Positions 58,612-64,000 of a stretch of 64,000 bases of DNA are shown here, piece by piece. Under the pieces are notes generated by a model. That model made no database searches. It saw only the letters and a list, made by a program, of their open reading frames with translations, and had not been told where the DNA came from. The DNA comes from Synechococcus sp. RS9916 (lineage in GTDB: Bacteria; Cyanobacteriota; Cyanobacteriia; PCC-6307; Cyanobiaceae). The stretch spans positions 2,411,707-2,475,706 of the forward strand of contig NZ_DS022299.1 in assembly GCF_000153825.1 (NCBI RefSeq), read 5' to 3'. The position numbers and the translations under genes are program-made. Positions within the stretch are counted from its first letter, which is position 1, and the number at the start of each line of letters is the position of its first letter.

Positions 58612-58764
58612 GCTGTCGACGCGTCCCTCTCCAGCCAAGCAGACCAATGCGCTCAGGTGCCGGGCAGGGGCTTGAGTTTGAGCACTAGAGAGCAATGGTG
58701 ACGGGGTATCACCCTCAAACCCTGCCAAACAACCTGGTTCTCAGTGATTGTGCTGTGCCTGTGC

Positions 58765-59082
58765 TTACCAAGCACACCAGTTCCCGTAACTCTTGGGGCC
58801 TCGCCGGATGGCCGTGACCCGGCCGTTGTTTCCGATTAGAAAGATTGTTTTGCCATGCCTTGAGAATCTGGAGTTTTCACAAACGGCAAAGCCATTCATC
58901 CCTGCATTGAGGGTGATTGTGGAAGGACATGCTCCGTTCATTCCCCCAATAATTTCTGTTAGAGAGGCGCCGCGTTGGTAGCTATCCAGGTGGCCAACAT
59001 CGGCGCAAGCATGGGATTGAGGGGCATCGGCAAAATAGAGGCTGCTTGCTGCGACAGTCATCGCGAGGGTTTGTCTAAGCAT
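58765..59082 (-). CDS. small exported protein, unknown function
   Basis: The protein has about 105 residues: a signal peptide (LRQTLAMTVAASSLYFADA), then a mature part with four to five cysteines (HACADVGHLDSYQRGASLTE, GGMNGACPSTITLNAGMNG, FAVCENSRF, SYGNWCAW). No family is recognised; disulfides in the periplasm are likely. The longer frame start at 59151 would hide the signal peptide, so ATG 59082 is chosen. It marks the start of the AT-richer, exported-protein-rich stretch. Confidence 0.7.
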   Translation of the reverse strand: MLRQTLAMTVAASSLYFADAPQSHACADVGHLDSYQRGASLTEIIGGMNGACPSTITLNAGMNGFAVCENSRFSRHGKTIFLIGNNGRVTAIRRGPKSYGNWCAW

Positions 59083-59192
59083 CGTGAAAGCAGGGGATTG
59101 GTTTGCAGCTTGCCTAAGCACAATGCTCTTCGTCACTCTCGTGTTAAGCAAGATTGCCCGTGAAGGACGAACAGTCGCAGTGTGCTGTTGGT

Positions 59193-59591
59193 TTAGAGCT
59201 TGACTTTGCAGGCTCCTGACCAGCCACGATGTTGGACGCTATTGGCGATTGCTTCCTCGACCTCAAAAATTTTCTTGCGGCTTCCCATGATGTATGTGCT
59301 GTAATCCGTTCCGTCTTTGCTGCAAGACATCCACTTGTATCCAGGTGGGTTGTTTTTGATGGTGCAAAGCGCACGTTGTCCGCCTCGCTTGCCAGTCATA
59401 TTGCGTCCGTATTCTTCTAGCTCCTGGTATTGAATTAATCGTTGCTCAAGAATGAGATCGCCACTGTTGGTCGCGATGATGGCGTCTCCCAAGGCTTCGC
59501 ACTTGATTGTTGAGGTCGTTTCGGCGGCTGTGCAGGACGTCGTCAATACAGCAGTCGCTGCGAGAGATAGGGTGAAAATCTGTCTCATCAT
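59193..59591 (-). CDS. small putative lipoprotein, unknown function
   Basis: A 132-residue protein with a lipoprotein signal (RQIFTLSLAATAVLTTSC, lipobox LTTSC) and a mature part containing GDLILEQRLIQYQELEEYGR, ALCTIKNNPPGYKWMSCSKD and a C-terminal GWSGACKVKL with further cysteines. No family is recognised. It lies 110 bases from the preceding small exported gene on the same strand. Confidence 0.72.
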   Translation of the reverse strand: MMRQIFTLSLAATAVLTTSCTAAETTSTIKCEALGDAIIATNSGDLILEQRLIQYQELEEYGRNMTGKRGGQRALCTIKNNPPGYKWMSCSKDGTDYSTYIMGSRKKIFEVEEAIANSVQHRGWSGACKVKL

Positions 59592-59902
59592 CGTGCTCTT
59601 TCATGCTTGCATCGATGCTGGCATGAATTGCAGTTTGTTGCCACTGTCTTGATGCTTGAGACTCTTCCGTTCTTTTCGGTGGCTGATTGTGCAGACGTCT
59701 TCTGCAATGCTCTGCATTGTTTCCCCTAGACGCCATGCCCTCTGCGCAAAGTTGTTGAGGCTGTGTTGTGTCTTTGCCACAAGCATTAATTGCAGGGAGC
59801 ATAGGTTTGTTATGAGGAACGTGTGGTCTGCTTTTTCTTCGCTTGCCGTATCCAGTTTTTTTGAGGAATTTATTAGCTTGCGCCTCTCTGAGTTGGTGCG
59901 TT
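59592..59902. other. 311-base region between the lipoprotein and ion-channel-like genes
   Basis: AT-richer DNA. Short open frames exist on both strands (for example minus 59601-59939, plus 59656-59913), but they overlap the channel gene or lack any protein-like features. Nothing convincing is seen. It may hold the lipoprotein promoter. Confidence 0.35.
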
Positions 59903-61105
59903 TTATGAGGTGATCCAGATCGTGACCAGAGAGGTGCACAAGGCAATAACGACCAGGAGGTTTGCCTGCGTCTCCTCGCTTCGTATTCTCTTCGCAGTTT
60001 GATCTCTCTGGTCTTCTGGGGAGCGCGAGATTTTGTTTGCATGCCAGATCGTTATTCCGAAAACTGCGAGGGTCGAAAGATACATTGAGATGTAAAATTT
60101 ATCTAGCAATGTTAGGTATGAAAGTGATGGGGGAAGCATTTGTTTGTACCCATCTTGTAGGAACACCAACGTAAGGATGACGGATGCAGGAAGTGCGATC
60201 TTGGCTTCTGCGGCCCTGGCGTCGATCATGGGTGTCAGGAATGCAACGGCTGACACGATTCCGAGTGGAAGAAGTAGTTGCCATGAGCTCGATCCGAAGT
60301 TTCTTGTGTAGCTGACCTCCGCTAAGAAATTGGGATAAACTCCAATATTCGAATCGCCAAATTCTTCTATGGCGTCTGCATTAAGCCCCATAGCCGTCAA
60401 GTAGATGTGCTTCCTAGTCTGAAATGTTGCCCTATTCAGCGAGTATCCCTGAAGGGCATTTTTTTGGGAGATCCCTGATGATCCTGATGTGTCAGGCACA
60501 AAGGCTAGTTCAGTGAGCCAGAAGTCGTCTGATTCGATTTCGATTGGGAGAGTAATCGATTCAAAGGGGAAGCGTCTGAGGTCAATGTCATTGGCAAGAA
60601 ACCTTCCAGAAAAGACGACTGATTGATAGGTCCAGCCATCGCTGTCTGTGTAGGGGTCTTCAGGGGATAGTTCCTTGACGAAGTCCCAGTGTTCAACAGC
60701 ATTTAAGAACTCAAGGGTTAGCGCTGGATCATTTTGAGTTGCTTCGTCCCACGCCCTCACCGGTTTTTTCCACTTCACCCATGCATATCCATCTCCTGCA
60801 AACGTCTTGGTTTGGGGGTCAAAGGCTGAGATCTTTTGGATGAAGATGCCAATCGTGAATCTTGTGTCAGCCTCTCTGACTTCTTGTGGGGTGGTTGGCT
60901 CGTAGTAGTCTTTCCCGTCTGTGTTGAGTAAATTTCGCTGGGAGTTGGTCGATATTAGAGCAATGATTAGAGCAATAATTGCAAGAATGCCTACGGCGCG
61001 CAATTTGTTTGGACTCAATCTGGGAAAAGCATTTCTTGCACGTTTGCCTAGAGCGACGAAGCCCTTGAAAATATCTTTTGAGTTGACATTTCTGAGACTC
61101 TTCAT
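59903..61105 (-). CDS. pentameric ligand-gated ion channel-like protein (pLGIC)
   Basis: A 400-residue protein. Layout seen: a cytoplasmic basic head (1-35), one extra membrane helix (about 36-53), a beta-rich extracellular domain (about 55-270), then four hydrophobic segments: M1 about 274-293 (SWQLLLPLGIVSAVAFLTP), M2 about 301-325 (AKIALPASVILTLVFLQ), M3 about 331-356 (LTLLDKFYISMYLSTLAVF), M4 about 381-399. Motifs fitting prokaryotic pLGICs: TIGIFIQKISAF near 84, YAWVKWK near 107, the loop DLRRFPFESITLPIEI near 175-190 (counterpart of the Cys-loop, without the cysteines), and the M2-M3 linker MLPPSLSYLTLLDKF. Such channels (GLIC, ELIC) are cation channels gated by protons or amines. The extra N-terminal helix replaces the usual cleaved signal peptide. 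A non-channel paralogue is possible. AT-richer base use than the core genes. Confidence 0.75.
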   Translation of the reverse strand: MKSLRNVNSKDIFKGFVALGKRARNAFPRLSPNKLRAVGILAIIALIIALISTNSQRNLLNTDGKDYYEPTTPQEVREADTRFTIGIFIQKISAFDPQTKTFAGDGYAWVKWKKPVRAWDEATQNDPALTLEFLNAVEHWDFVKELSPEDPYTDSDGWTYQSVVFSGRFLANDIDLRRFPFESITLPIEIESDDFWLTELAFVPDTSGSSGISQKNALQGYSLNRATFQTRKHIYLTAMGLNADAIEEFGDSNIGVYPNFLAEVSYTRNFGSSSWQLLLPLGIVSAVAFLTPMIDARAAEAKIALPASVILTLVFLQDGYKQMLPPSLSYLTLLDKFYISMYLSTLAVFGITIWHANKISRSPEDQRDQTAKRIRSEETQANLLVVIALCTSLVTIWITS

Positions 61106-61380
61106 GATGGCTTGGCTGGTGCTCCTCGCTAGTGCGTTGTGCTAGTCGCGTGGCTTCTGGGTTCTATTTTGCGCCATGTCCATCCTTAGTGGCCTCTTCA
61201 CAGGGTATTTCCTTTCTGTGCCATGCCTTTGTCTGTCGTTTTTGGAGCTTGGTGAAGGTGAGTTTTGGGCTGCGGCCTGACGACTTGGCGCCCCTCGTTC
61301 TGGTTGCTGCTACTTCAGTTGGGCTTGAGTGAGAGTTGGAGGTCGCTGTTAACTTGATTGAGTGTGCACGTGTTGTTGTG

Positions 61381-61719
61381 ATGCGCCAACCAGGCTCGTG
61401 TTTCGTCACCCTAGTGGTAGGTGTGATTGGCCTTCTGACAACTGCTCAGCTCCCTCTGCTTTCTCAGGTCGTCACGCATTGCCCTGGAAGAAAGTTTTAT
61501 CAAACTCCCGCAAGCTCTACTCCTGTTATGCCTGAGCTTCCCTCTGGTGGTCTTGGCATGGTGAGTGCCTCAGGGGTTTCCAATGGTCTCCAACGTGACC
61601 CTCATCGCGTGAATGGTTGGGTCGAAGTGTTTGTCGTTAATGGAAGAGGTGGTGACCCCAAGGGGCCCTATTGGATGACAGAGCAAGATTTTCGTTGCGG
61701 CAAGTTTGTAGGTCGCTAG
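61381..61719 (+). CDS. small exported protein, unknown function
   Basis: The protein has about 112 residues: a signal peptide (RQPGSCFVTLVVGVIGLLTT), then a mature part with two cysteines (SQVVTHCPGRKFYQTPASS, QDFRCGKFVGR) and a WVEVFVVNGRGGDPKGPYWM stretch. No family is recognised. ATG 61381 is preferred over 61336 because the signal peptide starts there. It is divergent from the channel-like gene (275 bases apart), with no convincing gene in between. Confidence 0.65.
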   Translation: MRQPGSCFVTLVVGVIGLLTTAQLPLLSQVVTHCPGRKFYQTPASSTPVMPELPSGGLGMVSASGVSNGLQRDPHRVNGWVEVFVVNGRGGDPKGPYWMTEQDFRCGKFVGR

Positions 61720-62108
61720 CTGTTAATTAGTACGCTTCGTTTTCGTCCAATTTGATTGGAGTCTGCCTGATGTGGTGGTGGCGATTTGGGTGGAGGAGCA
61801 GTCGACGGCTAGGCGTTGTGCAGATCTTTGAATATGTCTGATCAGGTTGGTCTGGTAATTGTGTGAGTTTATAAATCAATCTAATCCTTTATAGAGTCGC
61901 TTTCGGCTTCATTAGCTCATTCAATAGTGCATCCAGGGGGGGGGGGCTGGTTCGTCGTCAGAGAGGTGCTCGGTGAACTTGCAACCAGGCATAGTTGGCG
62001 TCTTTTTATTTCTGATTCTCCTCAAGTTTAAATCCCTTTTCTCTTCGGGCGGAAAGCCTGAGCTTTTTAGAGGTCTATGGGTTTAAGCTCCCCAATATCG
62101 GCAAAGGT
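61720..62108. other. 389-base AT-richer intergenic region
   Basis: No convincing open frame. It contains the G11 tract at 61936-61946 and several stretches rich in T and A (for example TTTATAAATCAATCTAATCC near 61868). It lies between a plus-strand and a minus-strand gene whose 3' ends face each other. A short weak hairpin (AAAGC-TCAG-GCTTT on minus near 62058) could help termination of the downstream minus transcript. Nothing else seen. Confidence 0.4.
61936..61946 (+). repeat. homopolymer tract of eleven G
   Basis: Eleven consecutive G in otherwise AT-rich intergenic DNA. It may be a slippage-prone tract, or an assembly/sequencing error. No promoter with obvious spacing around it was found. 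Confidence 0.9.
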
Positions 62109-62567
62109 CTATTGGCAGCAACTCACGGGGAATGAGCGATAGCCAAACAAATCGTTATTGATAATAAAGTCAACGTCGCCTGTGATGAATTGTTCGCTCT
62201 TTCTTCCTCGAAGGCGGAAAGTGTAGGCTTCGCTTGGTCTTAGTTCTTGGTTGATTGTATAGGAGATTGTGTTGTCAATTGGGATGTAGTCTCCGTCTAT
62301 TTTTGCAAGGGGCTGCAGGCTAAGTTTTTTGTGGAGCTCGTTGTCGATATCGATGTCTGACAATGTCTTCGTTTCGCCAGAATTGTTTGTGACTGTCGCG
62401 ATTAGCTCTACTCTTCCGTCTCCGAAGTCTTGAATCGTTGCGTTAAAGCCCATTTGAGAGGTGTCTGCGCACGCTGCCAGCATGGCCGCTGCCGCAACGG
62501 CTGCGCAACTTTTTAGTGATGTGCAAGCCGATTTGATTCTGTGCATTTTTGATCTGTAATTTCTCAT
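62109..62567 (-). CDS. putative lipoprotein, unknown function
   Basis: A 152-residue protein with a lipoprotein signal (KSCAAVAAAAMLAACADTS, lipobox LAAC) and a beta-sandwich-like mature part (IQDFGDGRVELIATVTNNSG, LHKKLSLQPLAKIDGDYIP, ELRPSEAYTFRLRGRKSEQF). The wording VTNNSGETKTLSDIDI and the later strand pattern resemble immunoglobulin-like accessory domains (inference). It ends in SCC near the C terminus. The start may be ATG 62567 or the Met seven codons later. Confidence 0.7.
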   Translation of the reverse strand: MRNYRSKMHRIKSACTSLKSCAAVAAAAMLAACADTSQMGFNATIQDFGDGRVELIATVTNNSGETKTLSDIDIDNELHKKLSLQPLAKIDGDYIPIDNTISYTINQELRPSEAYTFRLRGRKSEQFITGDVDFIINNDLFGYRSFPVSCCQ

Positions 62568-62595
62568 GACTATATCCCAGGTATTCCTTTGGCTG

Positions 62596-62917
62596 CTACG
62601 GCTTCCTTGGCTCTTCTGTCTTTCTCTTGTCGAGGTGGCTTTCCTCGGCCCAGTTGATCAAGGTTTCGCGAATGCAATTCTTGGCTTCGCTTGGTGTATG
62701 AATCGTGAACTTCTCTTTTTCTTTGCTACTGACTTGCCCTGAAATGACACTCAGGTTCAGAGGATTTTGCTTGTTCTTTTGCGGCTTTTGAAGTTGTCGC
62801 TAGGAAGCCTGGTGAGGGCTTTGCCTTTTCGCCTATCACGCTTTGGATGGCCCCAGTGATGACGAGCAGAAGATGCTTGCTGTGGTGCAGAAGAAAGGGA
62901 AAATACGAGAGCTGCAA
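62596..62917 (-). pseudogene. possible frameshifted small gene remnant
   Basis: Within a 368-base gap two minus-strand frames join end to start. One (62726-62917, 63 residues) ends in GFLATTSKAAKEQAKSSEPE. A second frame, open from 62799 down to the TAG at 62596, continues with protein-like sequence (LSVISGQVSSKEKEKFTIHT, PSEAKNCIRETLINWAEESH) but has no start codon upstream. Together they look like one short gene broken by a shift near 62740. Alternatively it is non-coding, and no homologue was recognised. The rest of the gap shows nothing. Confidence 0.3.
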
Positions 62918-62935
62918 GGATTCATTGGCAGGGTA

Positions 62936-63334
62936 TTAAGGCAAACTTTTTTCGCCTGCTGAGTCGGGTGGAATGATCCAGCTTGGATGCTGGAATGTGA
63001 CTCCATCGGCAAGTGTATAAGCGCGGTTTCCATCCTTTAGTTCAAGTGTGGCTTTTGTCTTGTACTGCTTCTTATCCCCGTATATGACCTCAATCTCATC
63101 TTCAGAGAGCCATTCAAGATAAAAAGTTCCATGTTCAAAAATTACTGCTGATAGTGCAGCTCCACCTCTGCCCCAAGCACATGGTTGGACAGCATTATTG
63201 ATGTAGCAGGCTTCGTAATCGGTGCAACGAGTCCTAGGTTGGCAAAAATGTGGTGAGGTCTGTTCCTCATAGTCTTGACTATGAGCAGGTGAGTTCAAGG
63301 TCATCGCTAGTGTGAGTGCAAGTATTTGAATCAC
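62936..63334 (-). CDS. small exported cysteine-rich protein, unknown function
   Basis: The protein has about 132 residues: a signal peptide (IQILALTLAMTLNSPAHSQ), then a mature part with four clustered cysteines (HFCQPRTRCTDYEACYINNA, then VQPCAWGRGG), then beta-rich YLEWLSEDEIEVIYGDKKQY. GTG 63334 with an AGGA upstream is preferred, since ATG 63379 and ATG 63433 would overlap or abut the divergent gene at 63381. No family is recognised. Confidence 0.65.
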   Translation of the reverse strand: MIQILALTLAMTLNSPAHSQDYEEQTSPHFCQPRTRCTDYEACYINNAVQPCAWGRGGAALSAVIFEHGTFYLEWLSEDEIEVIYGDKKQYKTKATLELKDGNRAYTLADGVTFQHPSWIIPPDSAGEKSLP

Positions 63335-63380
63335 TCTCCCATCCTTTTGAGAAGCTTTTCGATCATGTCTTCTGCTCATG

Positions 63381-64000
63381 ATGCTTTCATACCTTAAAGC
63401 GATCTCCTCAGGAGTGCTTGTTTCGTTTCTCACGTCCTTGTCGCTAATTTTCGGTTCAGAGGCAAGCGAGAAGTCTGCGAGAAACTATCCACCGTTTTTC
63501 TACCGCTGCAACAACGGGCAGACGGTTGTTAGGCGTGCTGAGTACCAAAGAACTAAGGGCACAACTGTCTCCATTTATCCTTTTCCCGTTGAGGAGCAGT
63601 CACAGGTGCTACGGCGACGTCCTGCCAGGTTTACTGAGGGTCGCCACTCGGTTCGCTACTTCATTTCAGATCACGGTCAGGAGTACGACTGCAATCCGTG
63701 GAGTCGTTCTGATGGCGATGTCTTCGGAATCCCTGATCCTGCGGCTTTGCGACGGTATGCCAAGCGGTTCAACCCGGTGGCGAGGAACCGATTCATCTGC
63801 GCGGGCGGGCACTCTGTCGTCCTGCGGATCACGGACTTCGTGGATGCTGGACATCGCCACGGTCTGATGGAAGTGGGTGATGAAGAGCAAATCGGTCTTT
63901 ACTTCACCCGAGGTATATCAGGTCACTTCAACTCCAAGAGCACCTCAACACCAGGACTTTCCTTTGCCTGGGCTGTGCATTTGGATGACGCCCAAAGGTC
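63381..64000 (+). CDS. exported protein, unknown function, 3' end outside window
   Basis: The frame is open from ATG 63381 to the last base, so the stop is beyond the edge. It begins with a signal peptide (AISSGVLVSFLTSLSLIFGS) and continues for at least 206 residues without stop: NYPPFFYRCNNGQTVVRRAE, VRYFISDHGQEYDCNPWSRS, FNPVARNRFICAGGHSVVLR, GLMEVGDEEQIGLYFTRG. Three cysteines in the mature part; no family is recognised. Base composition returns to GC-rich after about 63600, unlike the preceding small genes. The start is close to the divergent gene at 63334, so both share a short promoter region. Confidence 0.7.
   Translation, partial: MLSYLKAISSGVLVSFLTSLSLIFGSEASEKSARNYPPFFYRCNNGQTVVRRAEYQRTKGTTVSIYPFPVEEQSQVLRRRPARFTEGRHSVRYFISDHGQEYDCNPWSRSDGDVFGIPDPAALRRYAKRFNPVARNRFICAGGHSVVLRITDFVDAGHRHGLMEVGDEEQIGLYFTRGISGHFNSKSTSTPGLSFAWAVHLDDAQR

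Follow-up and report, generated by a model that had tools for sequence, protein, structure and literature searches.

The 64,000-nucleotide stretch of Synechococcus sp. RS9916 DNA analysed here (the window) encodes a divergent pentameric ligand-gated ion channel (pLGIC) of the Pro-loop superfamily. The channel is new, divergent and probably mobile, and belongs to a clade that departs from textbook pLGICs in several ways. The gene occupies positions 59903..61105, stop codon included, on the reverse strand. The open reading frame starts with ATG and specifies 400 amino acids, exactly as given in the initial annotation, which had called it a pLGIC. The assignment was made with the ORF translation, a family profile, AlphaFold, Foldseek and VIA.

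Stock profiles were examined for family identity and, taken alone, scored too weakly to decide it. Pfam PF02932 matched the window protein with E 0.0075 and 17 bits (cut-off 28.1), NCBIfam TIGR00860 matched with E 7e-9 and 34.9 bits (cut-off 280.2), and PF02931 gave no match at E≤1. These cut-offs are a sensitivity limit and not a structural criterion. ELIC, the amine-gated pLGIC of Erwinia, was the top sequence match. A phmmer search of the PDB found it at E 3.5e-7 over residues 83-365, spanning both domains, and hmmsearch with a 12-row family alignment found ELIC at E 4.6e-20 and GLIC at E 2e-9. The profile search proposed in the initial annotation was strongly positive with the family profile, while the stock Pfam and NCBIfam profiles agreed weakly, below their cut-offs. 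PADLOC left the channel unmatched. A PF02932 search of the source genome also produced no match and was uninformative, as the control genomes were blank too.

The AlphaFold model (77-row alignment) had a pLDDT of 86.1 and a pTM of 0.79. Foldseek found 1102 matches in the PDB (E≤0.001), the best 50 of which were ELIC, GLIC, a GLIC-GABA-A chimera, sTeLIC, and glycine- and GABA-receptor chains. VIA aligned the model to GLIC with Z 22.6 and an rmsd of 2.8 over 280 residues. Chains of sTeLIC, ELIC, GluCl, alpha7, GABA-A and PDB entry 6v4a, which we take to be DeCLIC, fell within one Z unit of GLIC. DeCLIC is alike in fold (6v4a_D, Z 22.4), but its extra N-terminal domain is folded, whereas the window protein has helices and a linker only. 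AlphaFold, Foldseek and VIA clearly agreed on the beta-sandwich and four-helix layout.

A GLIC/ELIC-type channel had been proposed, which was right for the fold and the pore. The window protein falls in a clade of its own, and its pocket is nearer that of ELIC than that of GLIC. It is ~20% identical to ELIC, with which it has the loop A LEF-x-N motif in common; it differs in having D193 for Phe133, a Pro at M2 position 4', a Glu at -2', an additional N-terminal helix (TM0), and an M2-M3 loop one residue longer. With GLIC, the proton-gated pLGIC of Gloeobacter, it has in common the fold, the -2' Glu, the Pro-loop and the pre-M1 Arg. GLIC differs in its pocket residues, in having Val at 4', and in Glu35 and Glu243, both of which are Lys in the window protein.

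All features of the gene lie on the reverse strand. The protein begins with a basic segment (residues 1-31, 61013..61105) that contains a helix (residues 9-26) and is predicted to be cytoplasmic from its Lys/Arg content and the four transmembrane helices that follow. TM0, an extra N-terminal membrane helix and probable signal anchor (residues 32-56, 60938..61012), was identified by AlphaFold, conservation and hydropathy, and is joined by a linker in the AlphaFold model (residues 57-80, 60866..60937) to the beta-sandwich ligand-binding domain (residues 81-268, 60302..60865; AlphaFold and VIA), which is predicted to be periplasmic. Within this domain the Pro-loop RRFPFES (residues 177-183, 60557..60577) aligned with GLIC RRYPFDS at the Cys-loop position, as had been claimed. 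AlphaFold then placed four long helices: M1 (residues 270-289, 60239..60298), with a kink Pro at P280 and the pre-M1 R268 immediately ahead; the M2 pore helix (residues 299-321, 60143..60211); M3 (residues 333-361, 60023..60109); and M4 (residues 364-399, 59909..60016). The four membrane segments, beta-rich outer domain and M2-like pore helix of the initial annotation are thus all in the model. The Pro-Pro M2-M3 linker is also present (P326-P327), but its second Pro is no family mark, most relatives shown having LPxLPY or LPxLPF. The Cys-loop cysteines are missing, again as noted before: the translation has a single Cys, in M4, and the outer domain is Cys-free. Eukaryotic Cys-loop receptors, in contrast, have a Cys pair around the Pro-loop.

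The part of PMC4795631 consulted, including the consensus in its Table 1, gives the Pro-loop Pro at 100%, the Pro-loop Asp at 93% (Glu 3%), the pre-M1 Arg at 94%, the M1 Pro at 77%, the M2-M3 Pro at 88%, a basic 0' residue at 79% and Leu 9' at 75%. The alignment showed that the window protein keeps P180, E182, R268, P280, P326, K302 (0') and L311 (9'). The salt-bridge pair is retained as E182, the 3% variant that replaces Asp, plus R268. M2 also contains E300 (-2'), P306 (4') and F315 (13'). The Glu at -2', as in GLIC, suggests a channel that is probably cation-selective. P4' and K0' adjoin the filter and could change the selectivity.

Residue counts in relatives set the clade apart. Among 102 aligned rows the Pro-loop Pro was invariant, P4' was found in 102/102, Asp or Glu at -2' in 101 and Arg or Lys at 0' in 102. 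An acid in the Pro-loop was found in only 38 and a pre-M1 Arg or Lys in only 12. These rows are the 107 of the full alignment minus GLIC, ELIC, L024, L025 and L026, and include a few duplicates (L003/L119 and L016/L118; L027 and L114 are close). One scan for relatives was partly seeded on the M2 motif, so P4' is partly built into this count. The count was repeated on unseeded relatives, comprising 34 of 40 loci after removal of L001 (the window itself) and L022-L026 (distant or partial). P4' was present in 34/34, the -2' acid in 33/34, the Pro-loop acid in 14/34 and the pre-M1 basic residue in 4/34; the distant L024, L025 and L026 had P4' in 2/3. Both sets of counts indicate that the salt-bridge pair has been lost in most of the clade and kept by the window protein, which has the clade marks P306, E300 and the hydrophobic helix 32-56. 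A further alignment, A2, contained the window protein and 76 of 78 loci, L070 and L095 having been dropped.

In a tree of 52 rows the window protein paired with L132 in a separate lineage (support 96/99). L132 comes from another genus of the same family as the window strain and is 29% identical over 344 columns. The two have in common FPFE, the pre-M1 Arg, P4' and the longer M2-M3 loop. L132 has no -2' acid and, with D and G at the two positions, no pair of pocket glutamates, so ligand and ion may differ between the sisters. L132 gave no Pfam match at E≤0.001, and it lies beside an ORF that looked recombinase-like by eye and was blank in Pfam. A gene for a Nif11-domain peptide, presumably a prochlorosin-like leader, is located 2.4 kb from this sister channel (L142:252-590).

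Scanning the genus gave a match in 19/31 genomes, the window's own included, the best other being 34% identical. A match was found in 61/388 genomes of the class, many of them weak and distant, and two scans of viral contigs found no relative. Judged by sequence, the window channel is an orphan: in the genomes scanned, relatives that align over most of its length reach at most 34% identity. Other Synechococcus members of the superfamily are already listed in the portions of PMC549065 and PMC4795631 consulted.

The initial annotation placed an extra N-terminal helix where a signal peptide would be. A hydrophobic segment in this position is general in the clade. The best 17-residue span ahead of the outer domain had a mean hydropathy of at least 1.8 in 76/76 proteins scored and at least 2.28 in 34/34 relatives found without seeding. 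With a stricter 19-residue threshold (1.6), L047 and L068 had no N-terminal segment. Conservation of TM0 was compared in 15 relatives with a LivJ-like neighbour, rather than in the window protein, after 4/19 chosen loci were dropped with an unrecognised neighbour signal. Pairwise identity was 54.7% for TM0, 51.6% for M4, 32.3% for the neighbours' signal peptides and 25% for shuffled sequence, and TM0 identity exceeded that of the neighbour signal peptide in 89/105 pairs. By group, TM0 identity was 54% (22 LivJ-type rows), 46% (3 rows), 38% (7 rows) and 24% (17 non-cyanobacterial rows).

The main alternative is that TM0 is an ordinary cleaved signal peptide, leaving a plain four-helix pLGIC as the mature protein. 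It deserves serious weight while being the less probable of the two: section 6 of PMC549065 describes an N-terminal signal peptide for bacterial members, TM0 identity is low in the 24% and 38% groups, and L047 and L068 lack the segment at the stricter threshold. Against cleavage, TM0 conservation resembles that of M4, and no A-x-A was seen by eye after the window TM0. An A-x-A follows or overlaps TM0 in only 16/76 channels, several of them inside the helix, vs 17/19 LivJ-like neighbours. UrtA-like neighbours had an A-x-A in 0/21 (these counts leave out 9/28 LivJ-like and 2/23 UrtA-like neighbours without a start motif); 8 have a lipobox and many are probable lipoproteins. Absence of an A-x-A is therefore a weak sign by itself, and this control slightly lowers the odds that TM0 is retained. 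We consider it fairly likely that TM0 is retained and tethers the N-terminus in the membrane. The earlier claim is thus likely, given a TM0 conserved like M4 in relatives, and short of proof. In one myxococcal clade a Cys ends TM0 in 6/6 proteins by eye; such a helix would be a lipid anchor. A canonical lipobox for this anchor was weakened as a candidate, the strict pattern fitting 1/6.

The gene sits in a low-GC accessory island, the left part of which covers 58729..64000 of the window, on neither strand in particular, and which continues beyond the window to ~72.2 kb. The whole island (L109:6436-19950, ~13.5 kb) lies between the VanW and methylpurine-DNA glycosylase genes, and contains a phage-type integrase gene and an IS200-like transposase gene. 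GC falls from ~0.59-0.65 to 0.46-0.56 directly past the VanW gene. The channel-bearing part is missing in five relatives (L126-L130). In L126-L129, blastn matches extend from the gene for the Vut_1 transporter through to the glycosylase gene, leaving a gap of 78-216 bp. In L130, VanW and the right end of the island with the IS200-like transposase gene were matched, and the 12 kb with channel and integrase is replaced by 844 bp. The island contains four partial copies of the glycosylase gene's 5' portion (97.6, 83.6, 83.4 and 75.6% identity), of which the most diverged lies closest to the channel; they suggest traces of repeated integrations. The GC drop, the blastn absence in relatives and the glycosylase-gene copies confirm the accessory region of the initial annotation. 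The annotated setting among exported proteins without known function also held: in four neighbours (58765-59151, 59193-59591, 62109-62567 and 62936-63433) a hydrophobic segment was seen by eye close to the N-terminus, and Pfam matched none of them at E≤0.01. An orphan on a long branch in an integrase-bearing island might be a non-conducting receptor or a decaying passenger gene. This is very improbable, as the frame is open and the listed core positions are intact, including the R268 that most relatives have lost.

Many relatives have a partner gene. A type-I periplasmic binding-protein gene was found within 600 bp of 59/97 clade channel genes, the window's being among the 97. All 59 binding-protein genes scoring at least 150 by HMM in 1.21 Mb of loci adjoin a channel. 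The rule that every relative has a binding-protein partner was refuted, as 38/97 have none. When 1.5 kb was present on both sides 49/82 were partnered, and some unpartnered genes are near contig ends. In high-GC contigs the ORF caller produced spurious antisense genes, and the binding-protein counts were therefore taken from HMM matches.

The partners are of two types. The UrtA-like type matched Peripla_BP_5 at E 4e-130 in one member and PDB urea-binding proteins at E ~1e-109 in another, and three members scored slightly under or over the NCBIfam cut-off for UrtA. The UrtA-like gene is on the channel's strand in 24/25 loci, often overlapping the channel gene by 4 bp or standing tens of bases away, and lies before the channel in non-cyanobacterial loci and after it in marine Synechococcus. 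The pair is found in Cyanobacteria, Myxococcota, Gammaproteobacteria and Verrucomicrobia. Same-strand pairs were observed at L031, L032, L034, L036, L037, L040, L041, L043, L046, L048, L052, L056, L061-L063, L065, L068, L072, L074, L077, L095, L110, L111 and L117. The LivJ-like type matched Peripla_BP_6 and is on the strand opposite to the channel in 34/34. Three distant cyanobacterial relatives, L022 (G045), L024 (G052) and L026 (G041), have ~430 extra residues ahead of the channel. In L022 and L024, the two scanned, this is a Peripla_BP_6 binding-protein domain fused N-terminal to the channel. L022 has an additional solute-binding domain (SBP_bac_1) behind the channel.

The sections of PMC549065 available describe alpha-proteobacterial channels fused to PBP-I and operons that include a stand-alone PBP-II or Cache protein, list a Synechococcus member and propose a chemotactic role. 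Stand-alone PBP-I/channel pairs are reported neither in those sections nor in the literature searched, which took in few subscription journals and preprints. Unlike the ART-LGICs of PMC549065 with fused or operonic binding partners, as described in those sections, the window gene has no such partner. Neither binding-protein profile matched within its 20-kb locus L109 (flanks of 7.6 and 11.3 kb).

The ligand pocket was compared with that of ELIC. ELIC Y38, E77, E131 and Y175 correspond to Y107, E132, E191 and Y235 of the window protein, F188 to Y257, and F133, N103 and R91 to D193, S162 and D150. With 4/8 positions identical, the pocket exceeds the 17-20% background only modestly. The window protein has both glutamates (77 and 131) and three of the four aromatics (38, 133, 175 and 188), position 133 being Asp. 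The agonist amino group in ELIC sits close to Glu77 and Glu131, and no cysteamine response was obtained when the principal-side residues Glu77, Glu131, Phe187, Phe133, Tyr174 and Ile79 were mutated to Ala (PMC3119659, in the part consulted; its Tyr174 and Phe187 were taken as 175 and 188 of our comparison).

Both pocket glutamates were found in 0/59 partnered and 14/37 unpartnered channels, and the full salt-bridge pair in 0/59 and 5/37. The contrast between Glu77 and partner tracks the tree, with few independent events, and is a lead rather than a test. Gating of the window channel in trans by a periplasmic binding protein, for example the UrtA of its genome, is unlikely. The partners and N-terminal fusions of relatives would suit such gating, and a Peripla_BP_6 search of the source genome found two genes, both UrtA-like. 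These are ~0.5 Mb from the window gene in a urea-transporter-like ORF order, no binding-protein match adjoins the channel, and none of the 59 partnered channels has the two glutamates or the complete salt-bridge pair, all of which are intact in the window protein. The two UrtA-like genes are within 7 kb of each other (L125, G000:C1:1970292-1976985), apparently as the ends of a urea-transporter-like run, judged by ORF order only.

Direct binding of an amine was considered in the light of a freshwater branch of the clade, where the channel is downstream of a PLP-decarboxylase gene in 6/6 loci, two of them near-copies. The run in L086, L089, L092, L098, L104 and L106 is decarboxylase, a Pfam-blank unknown protein, MFS (5/6) and pLGIC; these clusters rest on the same ORF caller and on Pfam for one member. 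The one decarboxylase searched was closest to serine and histidine decarboxylases. These genes make an amine plausible as a ligand for the clade. The freshwater pocket reads YxEDY[YF] and that of the window protein YEEDYY. The 34 LivJ-partnered channels all have Glu131 and the three aromatics as well, so the pattern is not specific to decarboxylase loci, and the odds of an amine ligand are slightly lowered. Based on these pocket residues, an amine is a tentative candidate for the ligand of the window channel.

GLIC-like gating by protons appears still less probable than gating in trans. GLIC chains top the VIA list (Z 22.6), with many other chains scoring within 1 Z unit of them, and both proteins have a Glu at -2'. 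GLIC E35, E243 and H235 are replaced by K100, K321 and Leu in the window protein. We take Glu35 to be the main proton sensor of GLIC, and its replacement by Lys disfavours this mode of gating.

On balance we lean towards a membrane-tethered homopentameric cation channel that is gated by a small, possibly amine, periplasmic ligand. The fold, family, residues and island were computed, as was the lack of a matching partner gene nearby. In the proposed mechanism the subunits would form a homopentamer in the cytoplasmic membrane, with an uncleaved TM0 holding the N-terminus in the membrane and the beta-sandwich facing the periplasm. A site between subunits, formed by Y107, E132, E191, D193, Y235 and Y257, would bind a small ligand, for which a primary amine is the likeliest choice. 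The Pro-loop (P180, E182) and R268 would relay movement to the M2-M3 loop, opening a hydrophobic gate at L311/F315, and cations would enter past the E300 ring. The physiological role may be to turn an outside chemical into a membrane-potential or Na+ signal.

A broader reading of the clade is speculative and clearly less likely than not. In it, channels of four phyla with tethered N-termini have divided the labour. Most would act via a UrtA- or LivJ-like protein and have lost the salt bridge and one glutamate, a freshwater branch would go with amine-making genes, and the mobile, stand-alone window channel would keep an ancestral direct amine pocket. The clade offers a handle on the natural stimuli of prokaryotic nerve-receptor relatives. 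Channel/binding-protein pairs make the ligand class guessable (urea or amides for the UrtA-like type), and the decarboxylase-MFS-channel run hints at a self-made amine. The clade is also a natural case of losing a salt bridge whose two residues show 93-94% conservation across the superfamily, according to the part of PMC4795631 consulted. The window protein, which retains the classical elements and lacks a partner gene, offers a natural contrast.

Two minor observations were made on the loci of relatives. A contig titled as a Bifidobacterium breve MAG contains a picocyanobacterial channel locus (L094) and is probably mis-binned or mis-named. At L061 (G029:C124) three clade channel genes lie within 8.9 kb, one of which is split in two frames (321 and 152 amino acids) and is apparently decaying.
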